64,000 nucleotides of DNA from Pholiota molesta (taxonomy: Eukaryota; Basidiomycota; Agaricomycetes; Agaricales; Strophariaceae). Position 1 is the first letter of the stretch. Each line of letters begins with the position of its first letter. The DNA lies in the NCBI GenBank assembly GCA_014925825.1, contig JACGCK010000038.1, forward strand, positions 1-64,000, given 5' to 3'. Position numbers and translations under genes: made by a program. The notes below the pieces were generated by a model. That model ran no database searches. It was not told where the DNA came from and worked only from the letters and a program-made list of their open reading frames with translations. Shown piece after piece: positions 6,824-53,879 of the stretch.

Positions 6824-9800
6824 TTAAATATCATGTGCTTGTTCATGGCCAAAATATGCGACTTTAATCTTCCTACCCTCCAATCCAGACACGACCACTT
6901 CTTGCTTGTCTCCCGGAATGAGATCCAGTGCGTTGTCGCTCCATCTGAGTTTGGTGGAGGGATCATCAACGGAGAGAACGACACATTTGGCAGGGCGTTC
7001 AACGCTCAGTGTAAGTCTCGTCTGGCCGTTGTCTTCGACACTCGATATCTTCAAACCTGGGACAGGCGGTTGTAAAAACCTGTACGGCTCTGGCCAGTCA
7101 GAATATCGCGCCAAAATCTCTCCGGACGCCGCGTCAATCAAGCGAGCGCTTGCAACCACATTGGCCGACTCGACAGAAAGAGGATCACCAGCGGAGACGC
7201 CTTCCCGAGACGGACCTGGAACGCGGATCTTCAATAGCTCTGTGGACTGGTTGGGCAGCAATACGACGTCGTGAACTTCTGATTGTACCCATTCTGGGGA
7301 GAGGAGATCATGGAATGTAAGCTCCAACTTCGCCGATCGTGCGGTGAGTAGGCTGTTTGTGCCCCAGACATCGAGAGTCGCATAGGATGTCTGAATGGCT
7401 CCGAACTCGTAAAACTATAAATGATGGGTTTCACAGTGAGTTAAAGTCCTGGCCGCCATATATGGGGAAGGGAGAAAATCATACCTGGCGTGGTCTATCG
7501 TTGTCCCTGTTCTTTACGACCTATTGAATTATCATAAGTAAACCTATTCACCAAGAATTGGGTGTATTATTCACCGTGCGGAACATGCCAACAGTGATTG
7601 GAGCTAATTGACGAGCGATCGTGAAATAGACCGGTTTAGGACGCAGCTTTCAAACATTCCGTTAGATCGCCTCGCGGGGGCCTCTTCAGCCAATATAGGG
7701 AACGTACGAAATAATCCGCAATGGCCCATGAAACGACTGGCCAACAATCATTCAGCTGCCAAACAAGCACGCCTGCGCACTTTTGTTGGAAATACACAAT
7801 ATGAGAAGACATTTTGAAACGAAGAAATTTGGAACATACATATTCGTGTCCACGTCCGCGCCATTCCCGCCTCCAAACACGATACGCAAAGCTAACAGCT
7901 TCCGATTGCATTAGCTGGGTATTGAAAACATGGCTGTCGTTATCGCCTTGTTCGTTAGGTTATAGGCTTAAGCGATGGTAAGAAATGAGGCTCACGTCTC
8001 GAAATCGGAAGTCAATCTAAAATTCTCGTTCATGACAATGGCAAACCTGCGCTCAAAACTTCCCGCTTTCGTATGCTGCGCCATGAGCTGCGACTGCGCA
8101 TAATACTGGGATTTATCGGCGTCCTGCATCCAATATTTGATCGTGCTCATCGAGGGCATACCCGGAATGCCGAATTCACTAAAAATGGGCAATTTCAGTT
8201 TAATATGCATCAACGTGGTTGCTTCATACCTGACGAAGCGACCTCCTAAACGGTCGTATTCCTGGTACTGAAGCTCCTTGCCTCCCCATATGTTCCATTG
8301 GTGGACATCGCCGATAGTCGGATCGCTGGTGTCCCAGCCTTTCCCTCCGTACGGAGATCCTCTATGATAGGGTATTTGAGGATCTGTTAATCTCGAAACG
8401 ACTTCAGGCAAAACGTGTTCGTAGATGAGTCGTGCAGGTAACTCTCCGATTCCTGGGTTCGAAATTAGGGGGGGAAAAATCAACAGCATATAAAACTAAA
8501 ATACGCACCGCCCCATTGTAAGACCTGTTGATAGTCTTCGTTATTACCACAAAAGCAGACAATAGAGGGATGGTGTCGCAGGCGAGTAACGTTGTCTTCT
8601 GCCTCCTTCTTAACGTTGGCTACGAAGTCGTCGTGGGCAGGGTAGACGCCACACGCAAACTGGAAGTCTTGCCATACCACTATACCAAGTTCTATTGTTC
8701 AAATCACCCAATAAGCTACATCCATGCGTCAGATGTTTAAAAGAGGATAACGCACCGTCGCAGATATCATAAAAAATATCGGGCTCATATATACCTCCTC
8801 CCCACAGGCGAACCATATTTTGGTTTCCATCGCGGAGCAGCGTTAACCAGTCCCTATAACGCTCTTCCGAAATTGTTGTGAGGAAGTTGTCGGCGGGAAC
8901 CCAATTCGAACCTGATAATCATGGGCGATTAGGTACTACGACAAAAAAATAGGACAAAATCGCGAAATTTATTACCTCCCATGAACATGCGCACGCCATT
9001 GATTTCGAACAGGAAGGTCGTCCCAGTACCATATTGATCGGGTTGGGACAAGGGTTCTTGGACAAGGTTCACTGTACGAAATCCTACCCGTTGCGTTTTC
9101 CTGTCGATTTGCGTGTCGTTCTAGAACGTGCAATTAGCTTGCAAGGTCATCAAAAATTGCACAAGGAGAGATACTCACCGGTCCTACCAGCGACACCTCG
9201 ACGGTGTACATCGTTTGATTTCCATAATTCACTGGCCACCAAAGCTCGACACCCTCGGACTGAAGATTATTCCAGGCCAGGGAACCATTTGGGGCGGTGC
9301 CTAGGCCTGGAGCACCATCCCAGGCGGCGATCTCTAAGCGTTCCGTCTTCAGAATTCGGCCCTGCTGGTCGACCATGGTGACAACTAACGCAGAGGTCTC
9401 CCAGGAGCCATCGAGTGTGATGTTAACTTTCAGCGACGCAGTGTAGGTTCCATCATCAAGAATTTTGGCTAATGCGGACACATTCGCCTCCTTGATTCGA
9501 GCGTTGTAAGCAGTAAAAGTGATGGGTCGATATGGTCCACAGGTCATCAACTCGGGACCCTTGGCGTTCTATCAGAACATAACCGAGGTTAAATCAAATG
9601 AGTACATGCACTCACCCAATCCCAGCTTCAATTGAGAAAAATAGAATCAATATGACGATACAACTATAATATGGCATGCGTTAACTCACCGCCAGTCGTA
9701 TTGAGCCTTCCTCACATATACGCGACTAGGATCTCCCAGGTTCGTTGATCCCGCACGTACTTTACCGAGTCTCCCTTCTTCGTATTTAGCTAGCGCCTTC

Positions 9801-10403
9801 GCTGATTTGAAGTGGAGGAGTAGGGTGTTTCTCTCCTCGAGACTAGTTTTGTTCTCATCGAGGACCAGAGAGTGTGTATAAGTCCTAAACATGTTATCCG
9901 TCGACAAGATCTTCGCGCCATTCTATGGTGAGCATGGTAAGATATAAGTCGCTGAACGAGTTATTCTTTATTCGGAATCGTACCAGATAGACGTCGCAAA
10001 TCGTGTCAAGCCCTTCGAATGTCAAGAGTCCGTGTTTGTAGGTCCCGGATGACTCGAATGCAAATGAATACTTGTAAAGCCATTCAACGTCTCCGACCCC
10101 TGAAAATCAAATGATGCGAAGTCAGGACGCAACATCATATCAAACTGATAATTTCTTACATTGAACTTTGTGCTCGTTGAATCCGATATAAGGATCTGGT
10201 ATTGCGCCAACCTTCAGAAGCTCGACGTGGATGTCCGAAGGCATTGAAGAGACCCTCTTCCACCCCTGAGTGACGTCATTAGCTTCATCGATCACATTGA
10301 TAGTCGACAGTTCGCGCTGTTTCCAAGACCAGCTTTCGGTATCGTTAAAAACCCGCGTTTCGACTGCTGAAGAGTGGGCCATTGGCGAAGGCGTTACTGG
10401 CAT
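6824..10403 (-). CDS. mndB: Beta-mannosidase, GH2 family (intracellular B type)
   Basis: Fifteen phase-consistent minus-strand exons give 2739 nt (912 aa): 10403-10160, 10099-9984, 9922-9690, 9625-9616 (10-nt exon), 9559-9179, 9120-8976, 8911-8756, 8691-8509, 8452-8230, 8178-7996, 7933-7840, 7779-7708, 7646-7575, 7520-7485, 7414-6824. It hydrolyses terminal beta-mannosyl residues of manno-oligosaccharides (EC 3.2.1.25). The order is GH2 sugar-binding domain (WSWKQRELS near the start, QYDWRWDWGPELM), Ig-like domain, then TIM barrel with MVRLWGGGIYEPDIFYDICD, FCGNNEDYQQVLQWGG (acid/base Glu in NNE), SEFGIPGMPS (nucleophile Glu) and GVLVWQLNDCWPV. No signal peptide is seen, and its length is close to the approximately 850-910 aa of the fungal B clade. 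A Met seven codons downstream (10382) is an alternative start. It ends 212 bp from the convergent GH15 gene. Confidence 0.93.
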
Positions 10404-10451: not shown

Positions 10452-10687
10452 TCCTCTCCTGTACTGTCCCATGGTATCAAGTCGCCTGACCTTGATCAGC
10501 CTCAAAATGGACACGTGTATAGCGCCAAGAATCCGAAATACAATATTGTAATAAATACATACCTATTCTCGGTCCGTGCTATCTCGTACCTTCAATTGAT
10601 AATAACATAGGCCCGGAAGAGCCTGCAGGTTTAAAATTGTCACGAAGAGGAAAGGCTGGCTGGTCATCGATCATCATCAAAGTTCAC

Positions 10688-11042
10688 GGTCGCTGAAGTT
10701 GTTGAAACGGTAGGAGGTTTAATCTTGGAGACTGTAACATCATGAATAGTAGCTGAGCCTCTTCCTTCGACCCTAGGGAGTTCAGTCAACATGCGTATTT
10801 TCCCACTGCAAATAAGCCAATACGAACTTGAATGATTCCTCATCTAACACGCCAGGTAATCCAAGGATATTCAACTGATTCTGACCGGCTTTGACTGCGA
10901 ACTTGAAAAGACGCGTAATTTCTGCGCGTCCAGAATATACGGCAACGCTAATGATTTTGCTATCCTTCGTTGAGACGAGCTCAATCGTGTTGATGAATTG
11001 GGATGCGGGAGGAGCTCCATTGACAGTGTTCGAGGGCGACAT
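10688..11042 (-). pseudogene. Inverted N-terminal fragment (DUF4140 domain) of a DUF4140/DUF4139 protein
   Basis: Two minus-strand exons, 11042-10828 and 10772-10688, join in phase. They encode a start Met, a NTIELVSTKDSKIISVAVY stretch, SGRAEITRLFKFAVKAGQNQ and GLPGVLDEESFK, then VEGRGSATIHDVTVSKIKPP. This is the N-terminal DUF4140 domain of the eukaryotic/bacterial 'mucoidy inhibitor A-like' family. After about 119 residues the frame runs into a stop (TGA near 10660). The rest of the family protein, starting with its coiled coil, lies next door on the opposite strand (11304-13122). The order exon 2, exon 1, body is what a simple local inversion of promoter plus exons 1-2 would produce. Biochemical function of the family is not established. 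Confidence 0.8.
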
Positions 11043-11127
11043 TTAGTGAATGAGCGCTGGGGCTGGTTCATGAACTACTGGAGATGGATAGGGAGGTAAG
11101 AGGAAATATTCATCATACGAAGCCAAA

Positions 11128-11135
11128 CTTATATA
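11128..11135 (-). promoter_or_regulatory. TATA box inverted together with the DUF4140 fragment
   Basis: TATATAAG on the minus strand lies 86 bp upstream of the fragment's start codon at 11042, preceded by a CCACGCCC element. It was probably the promoter of the whole gene before the inversion. Confidence 0.45.
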
Positions 11136-11303
11136 CTGCCAGGGCTGGGCGTGGCTGGATATATAGTTCAACTGTCTGACATGATTGTTGTCACCGTTGA
11201 GCGCTTGAGCGGCGTTAACGATAAATGGCATGCCGTGACATAACCATGATTTTAAGTAGTAGTAGCCAATCAAAAAATTGTAACGCGTCATGTACTTACG
11301 CGG

Positions 11304-13122
11304 ATGAATAGAAATTTGAACAAGCGTAAGTACAAGTCAAGTTAAAATATAACTACTTTTAGTGTCCACGACCTAGTCTCCCGGTCAACTCCCGGTGTCA
11401 GACTCCGACTATTTGCCCTTTTGGCGAGACAAAAGCGCGTCGAGAAAGCGCTTGCTCGTACCCTGAAGTCGATTTCCTCACTCGAAACATATCTCAGTTC
11501 AGTTAGCTCGGAGCATCTTGAAGTGTCAAAGCTGAAGGAAGTCGTGCAGAGTTATGACTCTACTGCGCAAGAGCTAGATGAAAAGGTCATCAAGCTAGAA
11601 GAGGAGATCGAAGTCATAAAAGAGGCGATCTTAGAGGAGAAGAACAAGCTTGCAGGACCATCGGAGAACGAGAAGCTAAATTTGCAGGCGATGATAGGTG
11701 TTTTTGCTGAATCCGAAGGAGAAATCAAGATTGCTCTCGTCTACGGTGCGCGATGCTATTGCTCACAGTGTTACTACGTTGACCAAATTTATAAAATATT
11801 TATTTGTATACCTATAGCGGTGCATAACGCGACTTGGAAACCAGTATACGATATCAGGGTAGACATGCAGTCGAAGGAAAAGCCGGTGACCTTGATCTAC
11901 AAAGCGTCGATCACGCAGAGTACGGGCGAAGCCTGGGACGACGTACCCCTTACTCTTGAGACGGCTTCACCCACATTTGGGGTTGGCGTCCCCGTACTTG
12001 TACCTTGGACTCTATCCATCGCGTCCAATTATTATGGTATGGCCAAGAAGTCCAAATCGTACAATTTTGGGGGAGCGCCTGGAGGAGCTGGTGGGGCGCC
12101 AATGATGTCGAGCATTCTAGGAGCCCCTCCTCCGCCCTCTATGGCCCGTTATCTTGAAGGAGCCTCGGAGAGCGAGATTGGTTCCATGCAGCACCGGGGA
12201 TTGCAAGTGTCCTCGAAGGGAGCCGTGAGCGCTGCGTTTGGTGTACCTGGGCTGATTAGCATCCCCAGCGACGGCGTTGGCCACATTGTCACCATCGTAA
12301 AGCTTAGCCTTGATGCAGAGATGAGCTGGGTGTGCGTACCAAAGAAAGATACCAGGGTCCATTTGAAAGTAAGTCGCAATAAATTCATTTCTTCATTGGA
12401 AATTTGTTTGATACCTCTTGTCCCAGGCAAAGATTAAGAATGCATCTGAGTATACTTTGCTTAGCGGCGGTGCCAGTGTGTATGTCGATGGGAGTTTTAT
12501 TTCGAAATCGGAAGTTCCCCTCGTCAGCCCCGAAGAGAGTTTCACCTGTCCACTTGGGTATGCTTCTAATTTTCCTCCTGATCTTTGTGTCCTTGTACTA
12601 TAACTTAACTTTATCCTAAACAGGTTGGATCCATCTGTCCGCGTAACTTACCACCCATGTAGCAAGAAAACATTGCAATCCGGTCTCTACTCCAAAACAT
12701 CCATTCATAGTTTTACGCAGCGCATCACGGTGCACAACACCAAATCAGGCTCAGATAAATCGATTTCGAACCTCAAAATCAAAGTTATCGACCAGGCACC
12801 CGTCTCAGAGGACTCGACAATTGCAGTCAAGCTGCTCCAGCCCGCCCTCCTACTCCCCGACGCCGAGGGGAGTGGGAGCGGTACATTCAAAGCAGCGAGT
12901 AGCGGAGAGCCGAAGGCCCTGCCTCCTCTCAAGGTCTCTCCGGGAATTGTAGCTGCATGGACTGGGGCGGACGATGAGACGGGCCAGGATTCAGACTTTG
13001 ACGCTCTAGGGAAGGATGGCAAGTTTTCATGGGTTTGCACAGTGCCACCCCAATCTAAAGTAGGCTTGCTTCTCCAATACGAGGTGTCTGCGCCTCTCAG
13101 GACGAAGATCGCTGGAATCTGA
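11304..13122 (+). CDS. DUF4139 protein body lacking its normal N-terminus
   Basis: Coding sequence homologous to the family begins by about 11421 (LARQKRVEKALARTLKSISS, coiled coil) and runs 11421-11745, 11818-12368, 12427-12557, 12624-13122, all in phase, ending in TGA. Motifs include VHNATWKPVYDIRVDMQSK, YKASITQSTGEAWDDVPLTL and YHPCSKKTLQSG, typical of DUF4139, and a Gly/Pro-rich linker around 12070-12150. No in-frame ATG precedes the coiled coil after the stop at 11343-11345. A possible replacement start exists: ATG 11304, exon to 11325, GTAAGT donor, acceptor at 11376, then the body, which would give 523 aa without DUF4140. Whether that model is used is unknown. The missing N-terminus lies inverted at 10688-11042. 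Confidence 0.75.
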
Positions 13123-13184: not shown

Positions 13185-15467
13185 CTAGATGGATTCCAAA
13201 ATACAATCAACCACTGCACATCTCTTTTCCTCCAAGACGACGCGAACTGCCTCCTGGATAACACTTTCCAGCCTTTTCTGCAATGCATGTCCATCTTGTG
13301 CTTCTAGCGCTGAATCCACTGGACCACCGACGCGTGCACCCCAAGCCCATCCTGCCGAAGCAGCAACAGCGATCTGTGAAAAATCAGGCGAAGATGGGCC
13401 AAAGCCGACTGAAAGCTGAGCGCCGGGGGCTGAGCTTCCATGACCCTTTGGATGGACTCCAAGCATGGATAGTTTTGGGGACTGCAATGACACGGGTTAA
13501 GCCTTGTCCAAATAATTTTTGAGACGCACTCACTTTCCAGCCACCGTTATTCAACACGATAGTGAGGAATGGCTATAGGGATGGAGAGGAAGTTTTAATA
13601 TCAAAGAACAGGAGTAAAATGTCGCGCACTCACTGTTTCGTATCGTCTCGCCATCCAATACGCCGAGCTCGGTACTCCAAACATAAAGGACCCATCTCCT
13701 ACAATCACCACGACGAGCTCGTGTTCTTGTTGATCAGTGTCTCTTCCACCAAGAGAGGCGCCAACTGCCGCTCCCAGAGCCCAACCCAGTGATGACCCGC
13801 CGCTTGTAATCACGGTACCGGGGAATTCAGGTCGCAAATGGCTCCATACCGCCGGATAATTACTGATAGACTCGTTGAGTATCAATGTCTTCGCGCCATG
13901 GGAAGGTGTCGCGGCGTTCATGGTCCGTCGGAGAACACCTATCAGGTTCGGCACGGTGAAGCTGAAATTTTTGCCTTCGTTTGTGGAGGATGGAAGAATG
14001 AAAGGTAAGAATTGTTCTGCTTTGTCGAGAGCGGCCACATGCGCTGAATGAGCTTGCACCATGGCTTGCCTTCGGGAATGTATCTTGGACACGATGGCTT
14101 CGCCCGTATTAACTTTCATCGGATCCGATTTCTCTCCTTCTGGAAGGATACCTATTTCCCTTAGATAAGTTTCAATCTGGGACACTGCAACTTCGGGATC
14201 CGCGCGACAGATGATCTCGGCATCCACTTGCGAATACCCTACATTCACTCTCAAAGGATCCCCACCATCGACGATAAACACCTTGGCTCCTTCCTGCGGT
14301 CTGTCGTTCTCCGTTATCCAGGGAAGGTCCGAGTCCAATACCAAAATCACATCTGCCTTGCTTAATCCTTCCCAGTGCGTCCCAGGGGCAAGGAAAGTCA
14401 CCCCGGTGTAGCTGGGATGGGAGAATGGGACGTTCACGGCGGTGGGGCACGAATTGACGACGGGAATGGAAAGAAGGGAGGCCAAAGAGAGGAGCGACGG
14501 TACAGCTGATTTGGAGCGGCCGATATGGGAAGTGATGATAATCGGTGAAGAAGCATGCAAGAGGGCAGTGGCAATGGTTTCCGTCGCTATGAGTTGTTGC
14601 GTGTATGATGAGTCTTACTGAAACCCAGAACGCCAAATCGGACATACACACCTGCAGAAGATAGCGCTGATGGCTCGATCGCAGGCCAGCCGGCCATATT
14701 AGAGACCAGATTGATATGCGCTGGATCAATTTCTTCCTCCATGACTTCACGTCGAGCCCAAAGATAAACGGGACCTTTAGGAACACTACCCGCACTATTA
14801 TGCAGAAACATCAGAACGAGGGACTTCTAGAAAGACGCCGTTGGATGGCCAGTACGCACATTTGTAAGGCCCTTTTAACACTCTTTTCAACTGTCTTGGC
14901 GCTGTTGAGCTGCGCAGTGTGCCTCATATACTGACGCAAGATGGCGGTCTGATCTGGAATATCTATATGCTCGACGTCAGATCAATTCGTTTGTATATAA
15001 ACGAAGAGGAGACACACCCTGAATCCACATAATCCACTCGTTCCTCGTTCCTTTGTGTTCGCCCTCCGCACTGAAGGGAGATGCACCCGCGTAAATAAGA
15101 ACAGGAGTTCTGCTCCGATCAACGTTGTGTACGGCGCCTGCAAGGGCCTGTTTGCTGTTAAAATTCGGTCACAAGGATACAGAACGGCCATTACCTGCGT
15201 TCCAACATCGACATGAACGATGACGGCTGCCATCTTGCCCGTCGCCTGGGCAAATCCTTGTGCAGCGCTAAGAGCAACCATTTCGTTGGGACATGTTACG
15301 ATATTGAGCTCGGTCCTTCCAGTCCCAGACTCGACGCGCTGTCTTTCCAATTCCTCAAGGATGGCCGGATGATCTGATCCCCAGTTAACGAAGGCGTGAG
15401 TTATCCCAGCGCGCACGAGAGTGTGAAGGAAGAGCGTCGATGCGGTGTACGTTGACGGCGCAGCCAT
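13185..15467 (-). CDS. Thiamine diphosphate-dependent enzyme (acetolactate synthase-like superfamily)
   Basis: Seven phase-compatible minus-strand exons: 15467-15195, 15147-15018, 14962-14860, 14794-14652, 14586-13634, 13572-13534, 13481-13185; total 1938 nt (645 aa). The N-terminal pyrimidine-binding domain has HTLVRAGITHAFVNWGSDHP and CPNEMVALSAAQGFAQ, with Glu62 as the ThDP-activating glutamate. The central domain has GPVYLWARREVMEEE. The C-terminal pyrophosphate domain has the full VVIVGDGSFMFG...IVLNNGG metal/ThDP motif. The enzyme should therefore bind ThDP and Mg2+ and cleave or carboligate a 2-oxo or 2-hydroxyacyl substrate. It lacks an obvious mitochondrial presequence, so it is probably not the biosynthetic acetolactate synthase. 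The exact substrate is not readable. Its 3' end is 62 bp from the convergent DUF4139 gene. Confidence 0.85.
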
Positions 15468-16411
15468 GTCGGATTTGATATTGTTCCAGTGAGGTGGTGG
15501 TTGTTCTGCGACGAGGGTAGTAGAGCAGATCCTTCGATTCTGGGAGATCAGGATGCGCCATGGGAACACTTATGTTCGTAACTTGACAATTGTTCACTGA
15601 CACTGTCTGAACTGAAGCATTATCTCGCTTATGAATATGTCAGACGCTACATACACGTGTTTTGCAAAGATCATCATGATCTAATTTGCGCATTGGCTAG
15701 GTTTCGGGTAATCTGATTAAGAACATCGAAAGAGTATTAATGGTTCTACAGTAGAGACCGCCCGTTGGTGCTTAGCACTGAAAGAACAGCGATACATACG
15801 TTCAACAACCCAAATTCTGACAACATAATAACACGACCTACAACTTGAACACTGATAAAATTATCAACAATGCTCCTGTAAACACCTTGCAACCTACAAT
15901 CGCCACTTTGCCCCTTGCCGGTTGTGACATCCCATCCCATGGGGATTGCGCCAGATCGCCCAAGCTTAGACTCAGAGCCACGAACGACCGACGTCGCAGG
16001 CCTCGTCGTCGCATGCTATGAAATGGCACCGATCCGCAGAAACACAAGGCGGGAACTGGAAGTGCATGAAAGGTACGACCCCGAGAGAATGAGTGTCAAA
16101 GACGTGGATCGCGCGATGGGTCGAGCGTGCGTGTAGTATGACGCCATGGGGGTGATGACGAATGGACGTGGTCATTTGAGTAACGCCCGCCGTCTTTTGA
16201 AGGACTTGAGCTTGAGTGTGTATATGTAAGAATGATGGTCATGAAGTACTTTTCGGAATGAGGTGAACCAGAATGGTGAAGTCAGAGGCATAGGTGAACT
16301 CCGCGTAAATGATATGGGTCTACACGATCACTGGGACCTTGGGAGAAAGATAGGGTTGATGAGGCTTGCTAGGAATAACTGCGAAGTCCATTGACATACA
16401 TGGTAACGGAA
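15468..16411. other. Intergenic region
   Basis: Upstream region of the ThDP enzyme and 3' flank of the nucleolar-like gene. Short open frames exist on both strands around 15840-16175, but none carries a motif I recognise or has a supported splice structure. Confidence 0.4.
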
Positions 16412-17271: not shown

Positions 17272-18739
17272 TTTTTCTAGTCGTTGGAATCAGGATGATT
17301 GGCTTGCGGGCTGCGGCTTCCAAGCGGCTTCGGTGTGTACAAAAAGAGTACTGCTTGGTTCTGACTGGTTTGCCAAACAATTCCGGTAACTCCAGTCTCC
17401 AACCTTGCTTAATGAATTCCTCCAATTCCAACCAATTCCGACCAATTCCGACCCTCATGCATTCATGTTTCCTGAACGTTCGGACAATGGGACCTACTTC
17501 TTCTCTCTGGATATCTGGATATTTGGAACATATGTATTCGACTCTCAGCAACTTGTCCTGTTACTCCCTGATGGCCAACTGACAGTGGTGGCAGTGACTC
17601 GGTTGGACCAGTGGGCAAACGTAATTCCAGGAAATCCTCGTCCGTTGAACTCTGAAAGGCCTAAAAAGATATGTATATATAATTTTCCTTCTGTTTGGGC
17701 GATGTTACATTCGCATTCTGACCCCTTGGGTTATAAATAAACCTGCCACTTGGACCACACTAGTTCGGATAATCGCCTCTGAATCCACATGACTGTATTG
17801 ACAATACCACCACCATCAAAACCTGACCCCCGTTCAAAAACCCTCCTCGAGCACCCCACCAAACCCCCGGCTGGACAGTGACGAGCGCAGTGAACGGTAC
17901 AGTCAGCCCCTTTGATCCAGTGGGCGGTATATGTAAAATTTCCCATAAATGCGTGAGACGGAGGGCCGAATGCCGCAGTGACAGACCTCACACTGTCGCC
18001 GGCTGCGCTCCTTACCTACAACCTCCACAAATCATACATACACACCCTCGTAGACGCCCCTCTCTGTGATGTTGCACACCCCAGGCCCTGTATAACGCAC
18101 CTCGCGTAGTTGGAAGACGTAGTGTGCTGGCACCGGCCTCTTATCAGTGCCATCAGCTCCCATCGATAACGACCACTGGTCCCCTGCCCCCGCTCTCCCT
18201 CTCCCTACAGTTGTCTACCCACCTAAGACAATCCTAGTATGCCTAACCACTGCCTCAATCGACCCGAATTCAACCCGTCGCTGCTAGCTGTGCCAGCAGA
18301 GGGTGTTATCGCCTGATCAGCCATCGATAAGACTCCCCCCCCCAACGCGGATGCGCTCCATCGCTAGCCTCAATAACCCTCCCCAACGAAAGTGGGATCC
18401 CCACCGGCAACATTGTTAAGGATGGATCGGACGATTTCAGGATGGCCGCCCGCCTCCAGTACTTTAACGGCGTGCTGCAACCTGAGGAGACCACCTCTCG
18501 CCCACCTCGTGGAACGCCCGCTACCAAGAGTCTGGGTGAGTCGTCTTCGGAACAACGTGATACACTTTGGCTGACACAGTGCCAGACCCTCGCCATGTCT
18601 AGCCCTATGGACGACCTCCCCCAAGTCACCTCCCTCGACGACATCAAAAAGAGTGTGGACACTGAAGGCGACACTGGCCATTCCTATCACCTCCGCCTCT
18701 ACTCCTCCTGCCGCCCTTCCACCTCCGTTGGTCCCACAT
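17272..18739. other. Intergenic region with low-complexity repeats
   Basis: No supported gene. Near 17420-17455 the sequence has tandem ATTCC-containing units. From about 18300 to 18740 several overlapping open frames occur on both strands with proline/serine-rich translations; part of this may be the decayed upstream portion of the retroelement that follows. Confidence 0.4.
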
Positions 18740-19640
18740 GAGGTCACTATCACCTCGTTCATGCAGGGAAACTAGTCAAGGCAGGACATGTAGACATCGG
18801 ACTCACTCCTGAAAGTATCGTAGTCACCTGTACTACTGTAGATACTGTATACCTAATATCTTCAAATCTCGCTATGAGAAAAAAAGTGAGCAAAGCATGA
18901 CCGATTGGAGGACTCATCCTTGGGATGGAATCAACCATTGGGCTACTCCTTCCAGATGAAGGTGTACCGTTATACATGGCCTTGATTGATCCCCATCTCA
19001 CACACGGAGCAGAGATAATCATATGCCTAGATATTAGCCAGAGCCACTTCGAAAGCCTGTAGGAGGTTCAGCTCACATTTATATGGTGCCTACTCGGACT
19101 CCCAAATAACTCCATCAACGTCATGTTATTCATGAGACTAGACTAATACCACTTAAGTTTCAATGTCTGCTGATCACACTTGAATCCCTAAAATATCTTG
19201 TTGCACTACCAGCAGATGACAACATGAAACTGTACCTTCTGCATAACAGGCTAGAGCCCAAAAAAGACGGTGAGGGATACACTCAGGTCACCTTCCTGAT
19301 CCTGTTGTGCCGCCACTGGCACCCTCTCACACTGGAATGACTTCGTCACACAGAGCATAGACGCCCAAAAGTCCCACGAGATAAGAGATTGTGCAGGTTC
19401 TACAAAGTACTTATTGAATCCCGATTCCCCAGAACACACCCTACTAGAGTGCATGGGTAATGAGGATATTATCACACTGAGAACTGAGTTTGCAAGCAAA
19501 CTCGATGCTCAACTCCCATATTGGTGGAACCTGTGAACAAACTATGCACACTGATTGGTGAAAGGGACACCATTGGCCTGCTCGCAAAAATTCTTGCACG
19601 AAGTCTTAGCCATGGCCCATATATGGTCCAGTGCTCATTC
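18740..19640 (+). mobile_element. Degenerate non-LTR retrotransposon (LINE) 3' remnant
   Basis: Read in three plus frames with several frameshifts and stops, the DNA matches the C-terminal part of Agaricomycete LINE reverse transcriptase proteins. Examples are GMESTIGLLLPDEG, YMALIDPHLTHGAEI, a CLDIS...SL.EVQLTFI and LLGLPNNSINVMLF series near 19030-19120, then SPEHTLLECMGNEDIITLR near 19420-19480 and GERDTIGLLAK near 19560. These occur in the order expected for the region after the reverse transcriptase core. No intact ORF remains, so the element is dead. The family assignment is from recalled motif order, not a search. Confidence 0.55.
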
Positions 19641-20431
19641 CGTCATGCCCATTTGACTGGGTAATAGCCCGCTATGAAGAAAGTACAAGTGGTAACAGGA
19701 TAGTCTCTTAATACTTCGGGAGGAGGGGCCACATTGACGTCCAGGCGAAAGCTGGGGGGACTGCTTGGTGTGGTTGCAATACTCGAGGTCCGGAAGCGAA
19801 GGTACTTAGTTAGCTCACATGTACTGGGATAACTTTCGGGACACGGCGCTCTGGGACGGGGCAATGCTGTGTATAATACTATCACTATCACTATCACTGC
19901 TTTTCAGAAACGCGGGCATGATGTCGAAGAAGTTATACGGACCTTATGGGCTTATCAGCAACACGAGTTCAGCATGATTCTTTTCGCTCCTCTGTGGGTC
20001 TTCGGGGAACGGCGCCCTCCGTGCCAGCTTGATTCGTGACAAGGCTTTAAATACCGTTTGACCAGACGCATGTCGCAGCTCTTCCTTTGTCGTATCTGGG
20101 AACTTTGGCCCTTGAAAGAGCTTTTTTTCAAGGCTTTACTTGCACTATTTTTGCCGTCGAGTAAGAGTAAGTCGCGATCTACTCTACTCCTTCCATACTT
20201 CGTTCAAATATGTTTCATCGTCGTATAGAGATGGAGTAAGACCATGATGTCCACCATATGGACTCCGCCCTTCCGTCTTCTTCTTATAGATCCGCCTCAT
20301 AGCGACAGAACCGACCACAAGTGCGATGTATACCTCGGGCATAAAATAAAAATAGGCGGCTGACTTATAACCTGTCGATAACAAAACCTGACCGCCCACT
20401 CATTCATAACTTGCCACTGGCGTTTTCGAAC
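19641..20431. other. Intergenic region upstream of the first carboxypeptidase
   Basis: Mostly unassigned. A short minus-strand frame ending at 20184 would encode about 52 residues with one hydrophobic segment (VYIALVVGSVAMRR) followed by basic residues. It could be a small membrane peptide or chance. A TTTAAATACC element near 20045 is a weak promoter candidate. Confidence 0.35.
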
Positions 20432-37619: not shown

Positions 37620-38166
37620 ATTGGGCTGTATCTGGAGGACCAAGGTGACACCATGGAGAAGTAGTTTGGATGGATTGCGTATGCATTATACTGCCGCAAC
37701 AAATTTTTTAAATGTATTTACAAGCGTCTATGCTTGTGGCGGCATATGAACCATGATATCGCTCAGATATGAAGGTAGTGATTATTACTATGAATAGAAC
37801 AAAGTCCTTCCTTCAACGCTTTAACGAGCATTGCAAGCATGTTTTTGACCCACAAAAAAAAATCCCATAATTGACTTACTATCGTATTCACGATACTTAC
37901 AGTGTAATGGTCATCAGCTTAGAGGTGAGAAAGTTGCGGTTTCAACCTCGTTCAGACGAACTGATTACAGTGCCACACTGGCATTGCCGTGGAAATTCGC
38001 TCGGAGTCTAAATTATATTGACGCGTCGGTTTCCCTTGATTTTCTCCTCTTGGTCTCCTCTAAATCTCCTCCAGGCTCCGACTATGCAACTCCCAGACAA
38101 AATCTACTTCAAATTCGTCTAATAACGAGATAAAAACACTCCAAAGGACCACACAACTCGCGAATC
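37620..38166. other. Intergenic region between AKR and GWT1
   Basis: No gene. Around 37900-37975 a tRNA-like string (GTGTAATGGTCATCA followed by GGTTTCAACCTCG) occurs, but no tRNA cloverleaf can be drawn. Confidence 0.45.
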
Positions 38167-40401
38167 ATGACAGAGGGATACAAGGAGGCCAAGGAGTCTT
38201 TCGTGTCGGGGATGTCAGGCTCGTCTATCACCCACATAAACTTACTTTGTCTAGTTGCACTGGTATGTATTTCTTCCTGTTAAATTGTGACGCTGGTTGG
38301 CCCGCCTCAATCGGTGACACCCCTGCTCTGAGCTGCATCTCTACATGGGTGTTTAAAGGGGAGGCGGCGGAATCGAAGGCAGGGGTGAAAGATGGAAGGG
38401 TAAAGGGCATTTGAGGCGGTATTGTCGGTGCGGTGCCTTGGGCTTAGTGACGCGCTGGCGAAACGTCCGCGATATTTTCTTCCAGAGAATACTATTTCCT
38501 GACTTCTGCATCCTTATTCTCCCATTATATTTATATTGACGTGCTCAAGCCCAGATTTCCGTATCGCTCTACGCTGCCATTCGCACACGCGTAGCGCCGA
38601 CGCGTTCTATCAGCTTCTTCACATCATGGGCTTTGCTGGTGCTTCCGATGCTGCTGGCCATGACAATCGCAGCCGAGAAACCCATGTATCTCATCGTTGG
38701 CCTTTGTCTTCCTCTAGCCGCTGTTTTAAGGTTACCACGCTCCGAGGCGGGCACACCACTCCCTTCTAATGTACCCGCGTCGCCCTCGACGCCCAGGCAC
38801 GCGGCTGTTTCTACATTGCGAAAGAACAAAATCCCGCCGTTGCCAGCATTGACGACCTATCGTTCGCACATGATGCTGATGACGGTGCTTGCTATTCTCG
38901 CCGTCGATTTTCCTGTGTTTCCGCGGATCCTCGCCAAGTGCGAGACGTATGGTGTGTCCTTGGTGCGTCGTCCTTCTTCTAATACTAAAAATTAATCTCA
39001 CTGGGTGGCAGATGGACTTGGGAGTAGGCTCATTTGTGTTTTCGCAAGGAATTGTCTCCGCCATGCCCCTCATCCGTGACCCCGCGTACATCACAGCGCC
39101 GATGTTCCCGAAATTGTTCACCGTGACGAAGCATAGTCTCCCTGTCATTGTTTTAGGCGCTTTTCGCGTATTACTTGTCAAGGGCACAGAGTACCCGGAA
39201 CACGTCACGGAATATGGGGTTCATTGGAATTTTTTCATCACTCTTGCGTTGCTACCCATCCTTCAAGTTTGTCTACATCCCCTCATCCGTATTCTCCCTG
39301 TATCTGCGGTTGGCTTTCTCGTTGGACTTGGTAAACTTCTTCCATGTATCTCGAGCCATTCAGATGTTCATTATTGGCAGTCCAACAGATAGCTCTCTCT
39401 CGTTTCCACCTACGAGACTATGTTTTCACGGCTCCGCGAAGTTCGTTGATTAGCGCGAACAAAGAAGGATTAGTATCCCTCACAGGTGCATTTCCTAGGT
39501 TCTTCCTCTTTGCTGCAGCTTGCTCACTGTACCCAGGCTACCTCGCTATCCAGATCCTTGGGCTCTCAGTTGGGACGATGGTCCTCCCACCCACGCCTTC
39601 ATTTTTCCGCCGACGCCAAACTGCCTTCGCAGCCCGGGCCACTCCTCCCGGGAGCAGGAAGCGACGAACGAGCGACGCGGACGCTGATAGAGATGCAGGC
39701 ACAGACGCTGCGTTCGCCCTGGATGCACCGCGCCAGAATGACAAGATCGCGACCGAGCTCTGCGCTTATGCGATTCTGTGGTGGGGCCTCCTTGGCCTTG
39801 CGCGTGTGGTGCGATTAGACGGGGCCTGGGGTGCGGACGGGGGCGCGTCGCGGCGGATGGTATGTCTTGCGCGCGCTTATCATAGAATATCTTGAGCTGA
39901 CAGCGTGGTTGGTGCAGGTGAATCTCTCGTATATCCTCTGGATTGCCGCGTTCAACACGACCTTCCTCCTCGCGTACCTCGTCGTGCTTGATATGGGATT
40001 CTTTGGGTCTTGGAGTGCAAGTGCGAAGAAGACCAAGCAGAAGAACGTTGGACACGAGGCGCTGCACGGCCGTGGAGATGATCGGAGGGCACCGTCGTCG
40101 ATGGGAAATGTGGCCGAGAATGGGAATCCCCCGCGTCTGCTTTCCGTGCTGAATAAACACGGGCTCGGCGTGTTTCTTCTTGTATGTGTCAAGGCGCAGT
40201 GCTGAGTTTTAAGCTGGGAATTTACTGATTATTGTTTACTGATTATTGATTGCTTCGCAGGCGAACGTGCTGACGGGTGTAGTCAATTTAAGTATGAAGA
40301 CGATGTACGTGGGGGACCTTTGGGCGTTGGTCGTTCTCTGCGTGTATTCTCTAGTTGTGTGTGGGGGGCCGTGGTTGGTAGAACGTGCATCCGGACGGTG
40401 A
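38167..40401 (+). CDS. GWT1: GPI-anchored wall transfer protein (GlcN-PI inositol acyltransferase)
   Basis: Seven exons in phase (38167-38262, 38555-38962, 39012-39330, 39381-39485, 39537-39859, 39918-40181, 40261-40401) give 551 aa. The start [20 protein letters not shown] is the conserved Gwt1/PIG-W N-terminus. Many hydrophobic segments fit a polytopic ER membrane protein, and motifs such as [26 protein letters not shown] and the terminal [18 protein letters not shown] are family hallmarks. The enzyme acylates the inositol ring of glucosaminyl-PI early in GPI-anchor synthesis, needed for cell wall mannoproteins. A Ser/Arg/Asp-rich, lineage-specific loop is present near the middle (about 39620-39720). 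Intron 1 is 292 nt, longer than the others. Confidence 0.93.
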
Positions 40402-40940
40402 AGTCTTGCTCTAATTGTATACCCTCTATTGATAACAAGTTGTGTTATTGCGGTGGCAACCTGTGGTAACCCGGTAGACCATTTGAATGCATTTCAAATC
40501 TATGGTGTAAACCTCCCGCTGGAAATGCTTCTTGACCCATTTTAGCGCCCGATGACGTTGTACTAGAACGTTGGCCGCTGGTGGCGATTCTCGCCACTAG
40601 TTAGATGCCGATAAACGCTATCGTCCGAAGATTCTGTCCCGTCCAAAGAAGAAGAAATAGCGATAATAAGGAATTCAATAAAGCGATGGGGGTGGTACTG
40701 TGCAAATCCAAAGCTCAGTGCTTGGCGCTCAGCATTCAGTTGACTTTGGCTCGTCAGGCTATAATGCAGAAGCCTCAAGGCTCCAAGTTAAATTCACGAG
40801 CACACGATGGTACTTATATACAGTAATACGCTACTTATCCAAATATTTTGATTGATATAGACTGTCACCGGCTGGGTACTCAACCCTTGCCTTTGAAAAA
40901 TCCATCTGCCAAGGCTCAGTCAGGATATACAATGGGTAAA
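40402..40940. other. Intergenic region between GWT1 and LAA1 (convergent 3' ends)
   Basis: No gene. It contains a 7-bp perfect hairpin (GTGGCGA/TCGCCAC, 40581-40597) and the 20-bp sequence at 40539-40558 shared with 35591-35610. Confidence 0.5.
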
Positions 40941-43900
40941 TTAAAAGGATCGAAGAGAAATTTGAGGTTTCGCGGTCGCTTGGGCAGTACCAGCCGAGGC
41001 GCTCCCAACTGAACGTCGGATACAATGTTCCAAAAGTTCTCGCGTGGGGCCATCCAACTTTCCAGCAGCCTCCTTGAACGCTGACGGGGAAGTACTTGCA
41101 AATGACAATAGCTGGCCAACAGTTTGAGACGTGACCGAAGCCGCTATTGGTTGTGATGGAGCGGTATTGGCGAGGAGGAGCGATATTGTAGGTAGGAATA
41201 CACCAAGTAATCGCGGGCCTAGCAAATTCATGAGTCAGAGAGATTCATATCAGAACTGTTATTGTGGAAACCCACGTTGATCTTCTGCAGCAGATGTAAG
41301 TAGAGCAGCGAATGCTTTCCAGACTTCACTAATTGCAGCTGCTTGAGATTCTGATATACTTTCATCGTGGATTAATGGAGCCATTTTGGCAATGAACTCA
41401 ATGAGTCCAGGTATGAGTAGGCGGGCACATTGTCGCAGAGTTGGACTACCTGAGGCCGATGACAGGATCAGCGTCTTTGCGCAATGCGCGGCGGTAAGTG
41501 ATGTCTGAAAAGGGCATGAGATACATTAAAGGAATACTGTTAGGAAAACGAACTTCGTCCGCATCTAGAAGCTTTTGGGAGATCAAATAACACGCATGCT
41601 CCACAGCAGCTCGTCCAACCTTGACCCAAGATGGGACAACAGTGAGAACGAGGACCGCTGCGAGCATGTTATTCTTGATCTTTTTCGTGGATATTGTACC
41701 GCTGCGGCCACTACAAGGCGGTCATTAATATTATACAGATATACCCAAGTAGGGAGCATACTGACCGCATACTATCAATGTTCAGCAGGCAAGCAGAGAG
41801 GAGAGCATGGATAAGGCGAGAGCATCGCTCCCGTTCTTCTGTACGATGTGATGCCGGAAGGTCCAACAATAATTTCAAAGCAGGAAGTGTGGGCGAAACT
41901 AGGTCTATCTCAGACGATTCGTCCTTGAGCAAATCTGTAAGCTAAAGGTGAGTTATCAGTTGACTAGTAAAATGAAAGGACATGCCGCTATAGAGAAGGA
42001 TGGCGACCCCGCGAACGTCCTCTTTCTGAGACGTGTTGATAGAGGTGGCAATAGAGGCAAATGCATTGATGCATGTGGATATCAACGCAATTCGGTCCGT
42101 CAATTGACCTTCTGTAATGGAATCAGTATCAGCATTGAAATGCGGAGATGATACTCACGAGTCGCACTTGCTCGACTGGAAGATGTCGTTTGCTTCAATA
42201 TATGTGCACAAATTCGCAAGCAATGAGCTGTCGGAGAGGTCAAACTGAGTAAATCGCCCCCAGTGGATGCAGATGTCTGAGAGGCAGCAAAGATCGAGAG
42301 CATCTCGACGAGATGGATTTGTATCGCCGCCGACTCCGTCATCCCCATGCGGTAGCAAAGACTGATGAACTCGTCGAAAATCGTCGGCTTCATGATGGCC
42401 GATCCTGAGTACTCTGGGCGCACAAGAGATTTCAATGCTTGGAGAGCGGATACTACAGCCGATTGACGGGCTGTTGTCGTGGAAGAGGAATCTGCTGATG
42501 AAGTCGCTAGAGCTTCGTAGACGAGGCCAAAAATTATGTGGAAGAAAGTCGTTGGCTCCTTGCGGACAGTAGTCGAGATTAGGTTCGTCTTGTCTTCGCC
42601 AACCTCTGTTCCATCCATAGCTGCTAGAATATGGGGATCGCCTGCCTGCATCGCAGTCGCCACTGCCTGAAGAATGATTGCCCATGATTTGGAGTAGTAC
42701 TGACAGAAAGATCAACAACAGAGTGCCAACAAAAGTGGAAAGTATACGCACTGGTAACAAAACTTCCTTTCCTAGACTGGAATACGAGGAATCGACCACC
42801 GATGATGTATCATGCAGGAACTCAGAATCGATTCTGATACTAGCATAATCCCGTAAGGATGCAATCCACAAAGAAGACAGTGTCGATCGATATGGCTTGA
42901 CAACATTCTCTAAATATCCTTGTTGCACGCTCGAGACTTGGAGCTGAGCCCAGGCGGACAGCGTAGATATCCTCAACATAGCAGATGCATTTGGGCTGAG
43001 CTCACCAGCATCGCCGAGAGAAAGCATACCAGAATCTGTTATAAGCGGTCAGAATTTAGGCGTGCATCAATGACAAGAAGGCGAAACGAACCTTTGGACT
43101 GTTCCAGCGCTGTCGTCAAAAGTTTGAGGATACGTCCCATACGACTGATATCCTTTACAACTCCACAGCCGACAAAGACAGCACACGCATCAATGGCCGA
43201 TGCCAAAATCTCCGGTGTAGAATCGGAAGAGAAGGCAGGCGTCAGAGCAGCGGTAATAGGCGCTTGGTGTTGTTCAAGTAGGAGAGCATCGTCGTACGCG
43301 GGATCGGGTGAAGCGGCGAACATCTAAAAATGAAAATCAATATGTCGAGACTCGATACAAAAAAACTGAATACTCATACCTCAATTACATCACGTAGAAC
43401 GACCAACCCAGACAACCTAATCTCCGTGACATATGCCGTCGACGCCGTGAACGCCATCTTAATAAGATCGCTCACGCGAGAGAACAACATACCCGCAGAA
43501 GGGACACCCGAAGTTCTTGCAACGATCGCATTCAGGTGCTCTTTTCGCCCACTATTCGCCACGATGAGGCAAATCTCATGCAGGCACTGCAGCGCAAAGA
43601 GCTGGGTCCTCCATCGTGACGTGAGCCTGCTCCTCTCACCGCTCTTCGACTCCTGCGACAGCCCAACATTGAGCGACTCGCCCTCGTCGTCGCGCAAGTT
43701 CTGCCTTGTCGCAGCATCCGCGACCTGTTGAGACGCCGTGGTCCGCGCCATGATCCGCTGGCAGAGATCGATCCATGCCGAAGGATTGTATATCACCGTT
43801 TGCTGGAGCCAGCTCGAGATGACATTTCTGACGCCCTGAACAGACGAATCGTCATCCAACATCCCAAACAAGTCTTCCACTAATTGATCTCCACCGAGCT

Positions 43901-46900
43901 TCGACATCGACAACGCGTCCTTCTGCACTAGTTGATAAAGTGCGTTGATCGAGGCGAGCTTCAGCGGACGGCGTGAAGATGCGAGGTGGCCCCTGAACCG
44001 CTTCACCAAATCTGGGATGTCCGCATGCTCGGGGGCGAACATAAGGAAATGTTGAATACACTTGATCGCCTCCACGCAGATTCCCTCGTCATCCTCCAGT
44101 GAAAATTCATTGACGAGACTCTGCACGAGTGCCCTCGTCCGCGCTGATTCCTGGATATCGGGTCCCAACACCGTGATCACCGCGTCTATAACCTGGCACA
44201 CGATCGGATACGCGGGGAGGTCTCCGCTGATATTCGCATTACTCAAGGTTCCGCCCTCTTTCTCGTGCGACTCTGTCAGGTACACCTTGAGCAACATGCC
44301 TAAAGTGCTTGACACAAAAGGTGCATACGCCAAGCTTGCAGCGTCGATCACCCGCGCAAGCGCATTCAGCGACCAAAAATGTACGACAGGATGCGGATCG
44401 TTGATTAGCGACATCAACACGTTGACGGTGGTTTTGAGAAGTGGACCAGCGGCGAGCCCTCCAACGTGGCTATAGATGGCACCGAAAGCTAGAGCGCAGC
44501 CCGCACGACCATTTGGGTTACGGTTGTTCACGACCTGGTCAACAAGGTCCTTGATCTGGCTGGTAAGATAGTTTGTCCCAGATAAACTGGCTAAGCGGCC
44601 CACGGACTCGCTTGCGGTAGACCGCAGGACAAGGTCTCCGTCTATCAGCGCTTCCTACAATTCCAGTAATAAAAAAAGTATCTGTTAGACAAAGTAACAG
44701 GAGAGTTGGGAACAGATGCCCCCCAAATACAACCGCAGGCAACTCACCATCAAAAATGGAGAAAGCAGGCCCGTAATCTGACTACTTCCAAACGTCTCCC
44801 TCGCCTGCCTGTATTGGGTAAGGCTCGCATACCTTAGGGCCATCACCAGCGCCACGGTAGCATTCACAAAGACCGCAGCCTTACGCCCCGTATTCTTCTC
44901 CAACTTCGGTGAGCGGACACTTTCTAGCAGCTGCGTGATGATCTTGACAGTGGACTGCAAGTCCTGGAGGGGTAAGAGGTGCGAAAAGAGCTCGATGGCG
45001 GTATCGACGACGGCGGTGGCAGGTGGCGGCGGCTCGGAGAGGACATAGTCCGTGTCGGAGAACTTGGCCTGGCAGAGGGAGAGAGGATCATGTTCGCAGC
45101 CGCCTATGACTGGTTTCCGATTCTGGACACATCCACCCAACACGTCAGCGATGCACTTATAGGAAGACTAATTCTAAATGCTCACCAGCGCATCAAGCGC
45201 GACCTCCACCGTATCCCTATTCAAATAGTCACCCCGGACACCCTGGCCCCCCATACCTTCCTCGCCCGCCCCGCCCTCCCCTCCTCTTAGCCCCGATCCG
45301 CTGATATCCATATCCCCTACTTCCCCACACGCAACTCCATACGCATACCCGTCCGCCGCCGTCCACAGCCCGCCAAATGTGCCGTTTGAGCTCGCAATCG
45401 CTGCCTGCACGGAGGACCCGGCGTACCCATCGGGGCTGGCAAAGAGCGCCACCGCGCCCTGCAGAAGCACCATCTGCGTCGTGTCCGGGATGCTGCTGAA
45501 CCCTAGGGACGTGAAGCACTGATGCACCCGGCGGCGCAACAGCGCCTCGCGCTCGCGCATGCTCAGCGGGCGCTGCTGGCCCGGCGGCGTCGTGCTTCCC
45601 GGCATCTGCACCTCCGCCGGGTCCTCGACGTTCAACGAGACGAAGTTGTTCGCGAAGCTCAGGGCGTTGCTCAGCAGCGACGCGATGCGCCGCGCCACGT
45701 CGAGCGTGATCAGCGCAGCGTTGTTCTTCAGGAAACACAGCACCGCGCTCAGCGCACTCTCCCGCACGTGCAGCAGGAACACCCATTCCGCCACACCGCG
45801 CCCCGCCGCCGCGCCCGGCCCCGAGTCCTTGCTCGTCGGTTTCGGGAGCGCATTCCGCCACAGCACGAGCAGCTGCGGCAGATGCGGCCGCACGAAATTC
45901 GGCCCCAGCGCCATCAACGCCGCAATCAGCGTCCACGCAACCTCCACTTCCACGCCCGCGATCTTGACGTCGTGCTCCCCAGCGCGTTTCAACAACTGGG
46001 TTGCAAGATCGAGTACCTTTGCGCTGACGTCGTACGATACGTAAAGCGGGCGGCGAGGGATGATGGAAACGAGGGCAGAGAGGCCGTAAGCATGACCAAG
46101 AGCACGAGAGGACACTTCGGGACCACTCGAAGGGATCAGGATGGAGGACAGATCGCGTTGGAGTTTGTCCATCACGGTAAGAATGGTCTTCGGCAGACGG
46201 AGGGGAGTAGAATAACAGAAGCACCGAAGCGCCCATGACGCAGCGACCCGAACTGTATGACTGGGATGCGAAAGGAGGGTAACAAGAGGTTCTTGGAGTG
46301 CATTCTATGGTGCATTAGCATCGATTCACACGACGTATTTTTATCTCACCTGTACGGGCGGGGGAGCGTTGCCGAGCTGTTGTAACAACCCAGCTACCTC
46401 TCGCAGAACAATAACGAGCACCTTTGGGCTAGGTGCACTCTGCCCAGGCATCATGGCGGGCCACCTCTTCAAATACGCGTTCGCGAGCTCTTGGATGGCT
46501 GAAATCTGCGCCTGCTCGCTCAACATCCGGACGCCCACCAGATCACGCAGAAGGATGCCCACGAGTGAGCGCACCAGTAGGGCTTCATATCGGGACGAAT
46601 TGCTGCGCAGAGTGGACACGATATCGGAAAGCAGATGTGTGACGATGAGCGAGAAGTTGTTTTCAACAAAGGCGGCGCCGAGCTTGGTCAGCGCCGCCGC
46701 GTAAAAGTCGAAGATGCCAATCCGCGTCTTGCGCGTGGCGTTGGGCTTGTTGAAATGCGTCGATAGGTGCACGAACATCTCATGCGGCGTGAGCATCGGT
46801 TTTGTGGCCTCCGCTGCCGCTGTCGGCGGCGAAATGTCGTCGTCTTGCGCGTCTACGTTCCCATCTTTCTTCCCCTTTTGCGTGGGCTCTGGTACCGGGA

Positions 46901-47980
46901 TAGCACGTTCGATCTGGGTAGCTGCAAGGATATGTCCGACGAGCTGTGCATGAGCGTGTCTTGTGGCTTGGTCTGCACTGTCCAGACTTTTCACGCTTTG
47001 GGTGATGATGGAGTCGAGGTCGCTTGGTGTCAACGGCGTGGCGTCGTTGGTAGAATACATCGCAATGAGGACCTGGGGATATCAGTATTCAGATATGTAT
47101 TATAAGATATGAGCTCACTTGTGTTGCCGCACGCTGCACAGGGAACGCTTTGTCTGTCAGCGCTGATTTCATCTGCTTTAGGATATCCTTGCCCGACGCG
47201 TCGGGAACTGCCCGTTTTGCTGTTGTGAGGGACTTGTAGAGTGCGATAAGGGCATGGTACCGGAGGAGAGAAGACTGCTATGATGTATTAGATGGGTAAC
47301 AGGATGGGGCGGGTGGACGCACCGAGGAAGACTTGTGTGTCTTGATCGTAACAGCACAGATCTCAGCCATGAACGACATAACCTGGGCGTCATCAGCTAG
47401 TTTACGGGCGTCAAATCGGAAACTAACACACCTGAGACCCAAACACGCCCATGAGATCTCCAATGCACGAGAAAGCAGCACTATTTGAGGAATCCATATC
47501 AGCTTTGTTGTCCAAGGCAACATTACGACGCACATCTTGACCACATCCCGGTCATTCGCCTTGAAATCGCCTACGATTCGAAGAAAGGCTTGCAAGGTAT
47601 CGAAGAGGGTTCTGGTTTCGCTGCGGGTATATAACGTGATGAGGCATCTGCCGACGAGATTCCGAATGGCGCGTCCGGGTGCTGGATAGGGTTCGGCGGC
47701 AGACACTATCTTGATGAATATCTTTTCGAGTTCGGGTTGTTGTGGCTTGAGATCTCCCTGATGGGATTATAAGAGATAAGTTTGAGCATTAACTTCTGAT
47801 AGACTTACTATAGGAACAATCTCCAACTTCTTATTTGTCGAAGACAACCATTGAAAGAGATAAAGCTCTCCGTTTTCTCCTGTAAGTTCAGACTGGTCAA
47901 GGTCAGAATTTGTCGGATAGTGAATCCTTCAAGCTTCATACCTCATTGAAATCTTCGATAACTGGAAGATCGTTTGACAT
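40941..47980 (-). CDS. LAA1: HEAT-repeat protein, LAA1/HEATR5 family
   Basis: A multi-exon minus-strand gene of about 7 kb, expected to encode about 2000 residues. Exon 1 (47980-47942) encodes MSNDLPVIEDFNE; exon 2 (47892-47809) SELTGENGELYLFQWLSS; exon 3 starts at 47757. Later exons carry HEAT helices: AEPYPAPGRAIRNLVGRCL, LTPSDLDSIITQSVKSL, ASWALRCFCYSTPLRLPK, TGRKAAVFVNATVALVMAL, NPNGRAGCALAFGAIYSHVG, HPVVHFWSLNALARVIDAA. The C-terminus ends QISLRSF, stop at 40943-40941. The motif order matches yeast Laa1 and animal HEATR5, which bind clathrin adaptor AP-1 and act in traffic between trans-Golgi and endosomes. An internal Gly/Glu-rich insert occurs near 45230-45310. Long opposite-strand frames over 45200-46240 are shadows of its GC-rich codons. 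The 5' third is duplicated at 55435-57685. Confidence 0.9.
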
Positions 47981-50100: not shown

Positions 50101-50512
50101 TCGGCAACGGCGAACGGTCTTGCGGGTGCTATGAGAGGCGGTAAGCAACATCACGGCTGCGGAGCGAGCAACAACCTGCTTACTGCGCGTTCCAGATGGG
50201 CGTCGAAGCTCGAAGGCTATCTGCGGAGGGAAGACGACATTAGTGCGGTGCGTATGCCGTGTTGGAGGAGAGCGCTCCCTTCGTATCGTAGATCCCTTGT
50301 ACGCTGTGACCGCGTGCGCAGCTAGCTTCTGAACGGCTCTGTGGTGTAGCCGACGCAAGGTGCAGCGCATTAGCGCTTTGGGTTATCACTCAAGAACGCC
50401 GACAGCTCACTTGTAGGACAGGCGGACCACATCGCCATCGACGAGTGGATGTGCGGAGAAGGGCAGCGCTGATAAGATTCAGCAGAACCATCGAGCTCGG
50501 CGGGCGGAATGG

Positions 50513-50582
50513 AGCGAGAGAAGAGAGAAGACCAGGAGAGGAGAGGAGAGGAAAGCGAGATGAGAGAATGAGAGAGATAACC
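50513..50582 (+). repeat. Purine-rich (GA) tract
   Basis: About 70 bp composed almost only of G and A on the plus strand (GAGAGAAGAGAGAAGACC, repeated GGAGA units). It is repeated in copy B at about 59945-60015. Confidence 0.6.
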
Positions 50583-50949
50583 GTAGTCTTATATATACCT
50601 TTGGTAGATGTGTACGTACATAGAATGAAAACGTTGGCATTGGAAACATATCGGCTAGCGTCCGCATGCGCTAAGCGAATATCGATCCGCATCTCCTCCT
50701 CCGTTTTCTCGTCCGCGTCCGTTGCTCACCTTTGCTTGTGTCTTGTAAACCATACCAGTTATCAATAAGAAACTCATAGCCAATTTCTATCATGACTTGA
50801 ATATAGAAAAGCGACCTATTCGTTGTGTTTTGTTCAAGTTTGTTATTAAGTGTAGATCATGCAGTTCATGTTTCTACATTCGCAAAATTGCGAGCCTCCT
50901 CTGCGCAGCGGCCAAGGATATTGCTACCCACACACCCACCGATCCCTGA

Positions 50950-52866: not shown

Positions 52867-53571
52867 AATTTGATGGTATTTCCGCTCGCAACGCTTCAAC
52901 CCTCCATAGCTATTGTAACGGATTCCATTCTCAGTAGCAAAAATTGTAGTTTGCCGGGCAAGTAGCAGTGCGAGATACTCGTTTATTAGGATATATTTTA
53001 TTACTAGTAGAATGTTCTGATGATGTTAGAAGAAAGAAGCGGTGTTTTTTTAGATTTACGGTGGTGATTTGGGGATGGAGGCGATGATGTGGATTCTATT
53101 ATGTACTTGGGTTCTTGTTGTGTCCGTGATACCGTGCGCGGTTCTTGAAATTAGACCCGAGTTGTAGCTAATGAAATTCTAGTTACGTTTGGGATTATGT
53201 ATAAGGAAAGATTTTCTATTCTCGGAGATAAATAATATGGAACGAGATGCAGTCTTGCAGATCTATAGAAGTAAGTAATGTTGAATCTGACTCAGAGAAC
53301 TGTAAAAAGAAGAAATATATTGCAATGGATAAAATGTTATTAAAATAATAAAGAAAGAAATCAAAGGCTTAGGCAGGCCAGGAGTACAGAGGGTGAGGGA
53401 GGATTATCCCTGAGCGGTGATTTTGCAGGGGTCGGGACTAGTAACAGCAGTTTGGGACCTGGGTCTAAGGATTATGTATTCGGATTTGCCACCGCGCATT
53501 CCAAAATTTAGTGATTGGTGAAATGGTGATGGAGACGTGGAAGAATTGTTCTGGCTTGGCATTCTGGGAGT

Positions 53572-53785: not shown

Positions 53786-53879
53786 GCGGAAGGTTAGCTT
53801 TTGATTTCAGATGTTGGTGTTGCTTCTACGGCTCCATATCTCTATGTAAGACGTCTCTTATCATGCCTGGAGGATGTTC

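Follow-up and report, generated by a model that had tools for sequence, protein, structure and literature searches.

In the Pholiota molesta sequence analysed here, a gene encoding a DUF4140-DUF4139 protein is split in two by a local inversion, which we read as a derived 0.72-kb inversion carried by one haplotype, most likely a recent loss-of-function allele whose loss the intact haplotype makes good (probability about 0.82). The window, by which we mean the whole 64,000-base stretch that was analysed, comprises bases 1–64000 of contig C311 (332,255 bases) in a 65.6 Mb assembly, in which contig C467 carries the region a second time. Window positions 10688–11408 (721 bp) are the reverse complement of C467:177747–178470 (724 bp), the two sharing 94% identity in opposite orientation between collinear flanks, and among the matches listed (E ≤ 1e-5) this is the single opposite-strand match to C467 between window positions 873 and 30968. 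Within the assembly, the local inversion is confirmed as real. An earlier note on this DNA had placed the DUF4140 N-terminal exons on the minus strand and the coiled coil with DUF4139 on the plus strand, which the domain matches uphold, and had predicted one local inversion from this single sequence, which is borne out by the intact order in C467 and the flipped order in the window; its estimate of size (~0.5–0.7 kb) was too small, the right edge lying ~100 bp further right than it had been placed.

Intact gene and ancestral order

In C467 the gene is whole, consisting of five exons that encode a 605 aa protein with DUF4140, coiled coil and DUF4139, and it is open across the break point, the Thr100 and Leu101 codons that flank the break in the window being adjacent there. 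Both domains lie in one reading frame (DUF4140 at residues 33–129, E = 6.5e-21; DUF4139 at residues 209–597, E = 7.1e-44) and the protein shares 76% identity with its Pholiota conissans counterpart. The gene stands head to head with a GH2-type gene, 683 bp away. Across the best 120 of 391 homologues found, 119 contained both domains, and the lone protein lacking DUF4140 was the window's own, BJ912DRAFT_926564 (Pholiota molesta); two independent divergent genes, the arrangement of orthologues that the earlier note had set against its inversion, were not seen in this comparison. Judged on sequence, the window orientation is the derived one, because the gene is whole in C467 and the listed relatives, that one protein apart, hold both domains.

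The matched parts of the same-genome paralogues on C615, C513 and C623 each lie on one strand throughout (those on C513 and C623 are ~96% identical to each other). Two JGI-sourced open-reading frames, presumably environmental in origin, also bear on the order: in P0142 (158 aa) exon 2 runs straight into the coiled coil, whilst P0121 (78 aa) supplies exon 1, and as the longest contig listed for both is 3006 bases, they probably derive from one contig. P0121 agrees with C467 at Pro10 but with the window at Gly64, and from this mixture of the two haplotypes we take it for a further allele with the intact order. The genome also encodes three ~95% identical copies of a more distant DUF4139 gene (L028, L029 and L030, on C124 and C178), for which a DUF4140 match was absent among the matches listed at E ≤ 0.001.

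The two halves of the inverted allele

The inverted segment contains the promoter region together with the DNA that ancestrally flanked the gene upstream, as well as DUF4140 exon 1, intron 1 and the greater part of the exon 2 remnant. On the minus strand, exon 1 (10828–11042) and the exon 2 remnant (10664–10772) encode an N-terminal half of 107 aa with a DUF4140 match (E = 2.6e-19), in which codon 100 is followed by seven new residues (VNFDDDR) and then a stop. The flipped promoter points at the GH2-type gene, which we take to be 'beta-mannosidase-like' and which is now downstream on the same strand (start at 9686–10403, minus, ATG at 10403, Glyco_hydro_2_N2 in 2 of the 6 open-reading frames given).

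On the plus strand, the body of the gene starts with a new first exon (11304–11325) made of flipped upstream DNA, its start shared with the public protein BJ912DRAFT_926564 (P0001), followed by an exon of 32 flipped bases and then coiled coil (11377–11745), two DUF4139 exons (11818–12368 and 12427–12557) and a last exon (12624–13122) with the stop at 13122. The predicted product is 523 aa long, with its first 18 residues encoded by flipped upstream DNA and a DUF4139 match at E = 2.1e-43, and a comparison by script found it identical to BJ912DRAFT_926564; the start at ATG 11304 and the intron at 11326–11376, which had been proposed as a potential new start for the body, are those of the public model. 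With the right edge of the inversion further right than first placed, the start exon, this intron and the next 32 bases all fall inside the flipped DNA. The window allele consequently carries one domain per half, on opposite strands, with both domains found together in neither product. Beyond the body, on the minus strand, lies a gene for a thiamine-pyrophosphate enzyme (13601–15569).

The foremost alternative, which we consider unlikely, is that a nascent gene fission is under way, in which DUF4140, read leftward, and the coiled coil with DUF4139, read rightward, form a divergent pair from one flipped promoter region and both work. The state of the coding sequence can be cited in its favour, as the 107-aa and 523-aa frames are both open, each with one stop, which is terminal, and without a frameshift, and gap-free alignments to C467 cover 100 codons of the one and 505 of the other. 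The N-terminal part differs from C467 in 14 codons, 11 of them silently (dN 0.013, dS 0.164), and the body in 39 codons, 23 of them silently (dN 0.014, dS 0.081). Open frames with dN well below dS suggest that the split is recent, or that the halves are constrained, and they bear no apparent sign of long decay. Conservation of the halves is, however, equally expected under a recent inversion, which would give a similarly low dN/dS, unlike an allele that had long been dead. By a crude majority rule with eight relatives, nine of the 19 amino-acid differences were assigned as derived to the window branch and four to the C467 branch, with six unclear; nine versus four is not a significant difference (p = 0.27), and several of the differences fall within a linker of low conservation. 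Against function, of the 58 columns that are invariant among 45 chosen relatives, 13 are in the DUF4140 part, which the body has lost.

Predicted structures bear on fission from both sides. In the model of the intact P. conissans protein, the DUF4140 strands lie within residues 18–88 and are followed by helices at 99–131 and 139–181, then by strands at 192–200 and 204–215 after the coiled coil (pLDDT ~94), so that the break coincides with a domain boundary of the predicted fold, as fission might favour. In the model of the window body alone, the strands after the coiled coil are missing and pLDDT there is ~47–55, which suggests that these two strands may need DUF4140 and that the body fold would be impaired without it. 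This comparison is confounded, since two different proteins are compared and the body model scores lower overall (intact P. conissans versus P. molesta body: pTM 0.56 versus 0.47, mean pLDDT 78.2 versus 69.6).

The new start exon likewise counts for fission, in that its GTAAGT donor is peculiar to the copy in the window haplotype, C467 differing there by 4 bp, and is used by the public annotation. Against it, five ATGs lie upstream of the new start, between 11181 and 11290, and a search with the 107-aa half for proteins of similar length found no P. molesta NCBI protein among its 22 matches, one of which was from NCBI (Agrocybe chaxingu). The body frame has a single ATG between 11346 and 11745, at 11691, which lies beyond the coiled coil. 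If the fission were true, former upstream antisense DNA would have given the rightward gene a newly born first exon, and the old and new forms would coexist in one individual, where they could be compared directly in sibling monokaryons.

On the loss-of-function reading that we prefer, the inversion has turned the promoter and DUF4140 left toward the GH2-type gene and deprived the coiled coil and DUF4139 of their start, and the normal protein function is most likely lost from the window allele. The 523-aa body may be made from the new start exon, and the models lead us to expect that it would be impaired. Such an allele would be tolerated because the whole gene on the other haplotype shelters it.

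Junctions and the second copy of the locus

The edges of the segment (10688 and 11408) were set by a script that reversed the C467 segment, followed by alignment of the junctions, the right edge being uncertain by ~5 bases, with BLAST extending the match to 11413. At the left there is a breakpoint zone with a ragged flank (10659–10687), where, relative to C467, ~10 bp are lost beside the break and another 16 bp close by. At the right breakpoint (11408–11409) the flipped upstream DNA abuts the codon that encodes Leu101 in the intact protein, with the loss of 4 bp (TATT) from the end of the C467 segment; as aligned, codons 18 and 19 of the body lie on either side of the break. Inverted repeats were not found at the segment ends; when the two break regions were compared, the longest inverted match measured 9 bp and lay off the breaks. 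A shorter one, of 8 bp, comes within 5 bases of the left break, and its partner lies 38–46 bases beyond the right break; at this length it carries little weight, though not none.

Small losses, together with the lack of an inverted repeat longer than 9 bp, point to end joining of two breaks. One break would have fallen in exon 2, where the DUF4140 beta-domain meets the coiled coil, the other ~0.37 kb upstream of the start codon, and the piece between them would have been rejoined in reverse with a few bases lost.

The same junctions weigh against an assembly error, in which C311 would truly be intact and its segment flipped by the assembler. Local errors do occur in heterozygous assemblies, but an assembler flip normally depends on inverted repeats and produces clean edges, and is therefore a poor fit to a segment bounded by no long inverted repeats and joined with the losses described above. 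The divergence of the segment from C467 (35 of 721 sites) ranks 29th of 60 along the alignment and is ordinary for the region, and the segment bears the substitutions particular to C311 and so was not copied in from C467. We regard an assembly error as quite unlikely.

The reading as an allele depends on what C467 represents. Between window positions 0.9 and 31 kb the two contigs align in collinear pieces of ~90–98% identity with several insertions on either side, and the spacing of the collinear flanks differs by insertions only. Tens of kilobases in common order at this divergence lead us to read the C311 and C467 copies, most simply, as the two haplotypes of a heterozygous dikaryon, and the Pholiota molesta genome sequenced was presumably dikaryotic. 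An identity that stays below 99% would suit a paralogous duplicate in C467 instead of an allele, but the order of matches is kept over window 0.9–37.8 kb, insertions apart, with the same neighbours, and the DNA search lists only these two copies of the gene (its counts being lower bounds), which makes a duplicate very improbable. That the segment is an invertible element serving as a reversible promoter switch, and not a one-off mutation, is hardly credible: a promoter-bearing segment of 0.7 kb is indeed inverted between two copies, but it lacks inverted repeats at both ends, bases were lost at both junctions and one break lies within a coding exon.

Known inversions and wider differences between the haplotypes

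Inversions between basidiomycete haplotypes and the splitting of genes by inversion are both already known. For fungi, translocation and inversion are named as events able to fuse or split genes in one study (PMC2557144), and the present case is alike in that an inversion splits a gene, but differs from the fission treated there in that the split is still heterozygous, the intact allele being present beside the broken one, and in that the two halves may not both be kept as genes. Inversions between the haplotypes of one basidiomycete individual or compatible pair have also been reported (PMC12411881, PMC12134998, PMC12129025), in passages that describe a 0.4-Mb inversion, large inversions, inversions within gene clusters or totals per genome, whereas the inversion here is 0.72 kb in size and breaks inside one exon. 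Relative to DUF4140-DUF4139 proteins (named in records 'mucoidy inhibitor A' or 'protein F37C4.5'), the C467 allele is alike in having both domains, whilst the annotated product of the window allele lacks DUF4140 and begins instead with 18 residues from flipped DNA.

What is notable here is a split at a domain boundary that is still heterozygous and has been carried into the public protein set. A sub-kilobase inversion breaks the gene at this boundary, and the intact allele on the sister haplotype serves as an internal control. As the public protein is the product of the broken allele, comparative studies that use it would wrongly infer that DUF4140 has been lost from this gene in the species. 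Short inversions of this sort are easily missed where one allele per gene is kept in cataloguing the genes of a dikaryon.

The two haplotypes differ elsewhere along the window. A 2.1-kb insertion at 17796–19888 is present in the window haplotype only; its flanking matches overlap by ~10 bp on C467, imperfectly, as a possible target-site duplication, and terminal inverted repeats are not clear (8 of 40). C467 alone carries a 1.48-kb insertion (C467:187881–189359) at window position ~1515, and around window ~32.6 kb it is longer by ~5.7 kb (C467 ~152.7–158.4 kb), an excess that includes a 129-bp piece 100% identical to the window. For window 54–64 kb, a close C467 match was absent among the matches listed. 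Past window ~37.8 kb (about 37760–54000) the C467 matches switch strand (106.9–110.8 and 124.0–147.3 kb, plus), and there seems to be a second, far larger rearrangement between the haplotypes beyond this point, adjoining tandem units of ~10 kb to which related units occur on C378, C168, C58 and other contigs.
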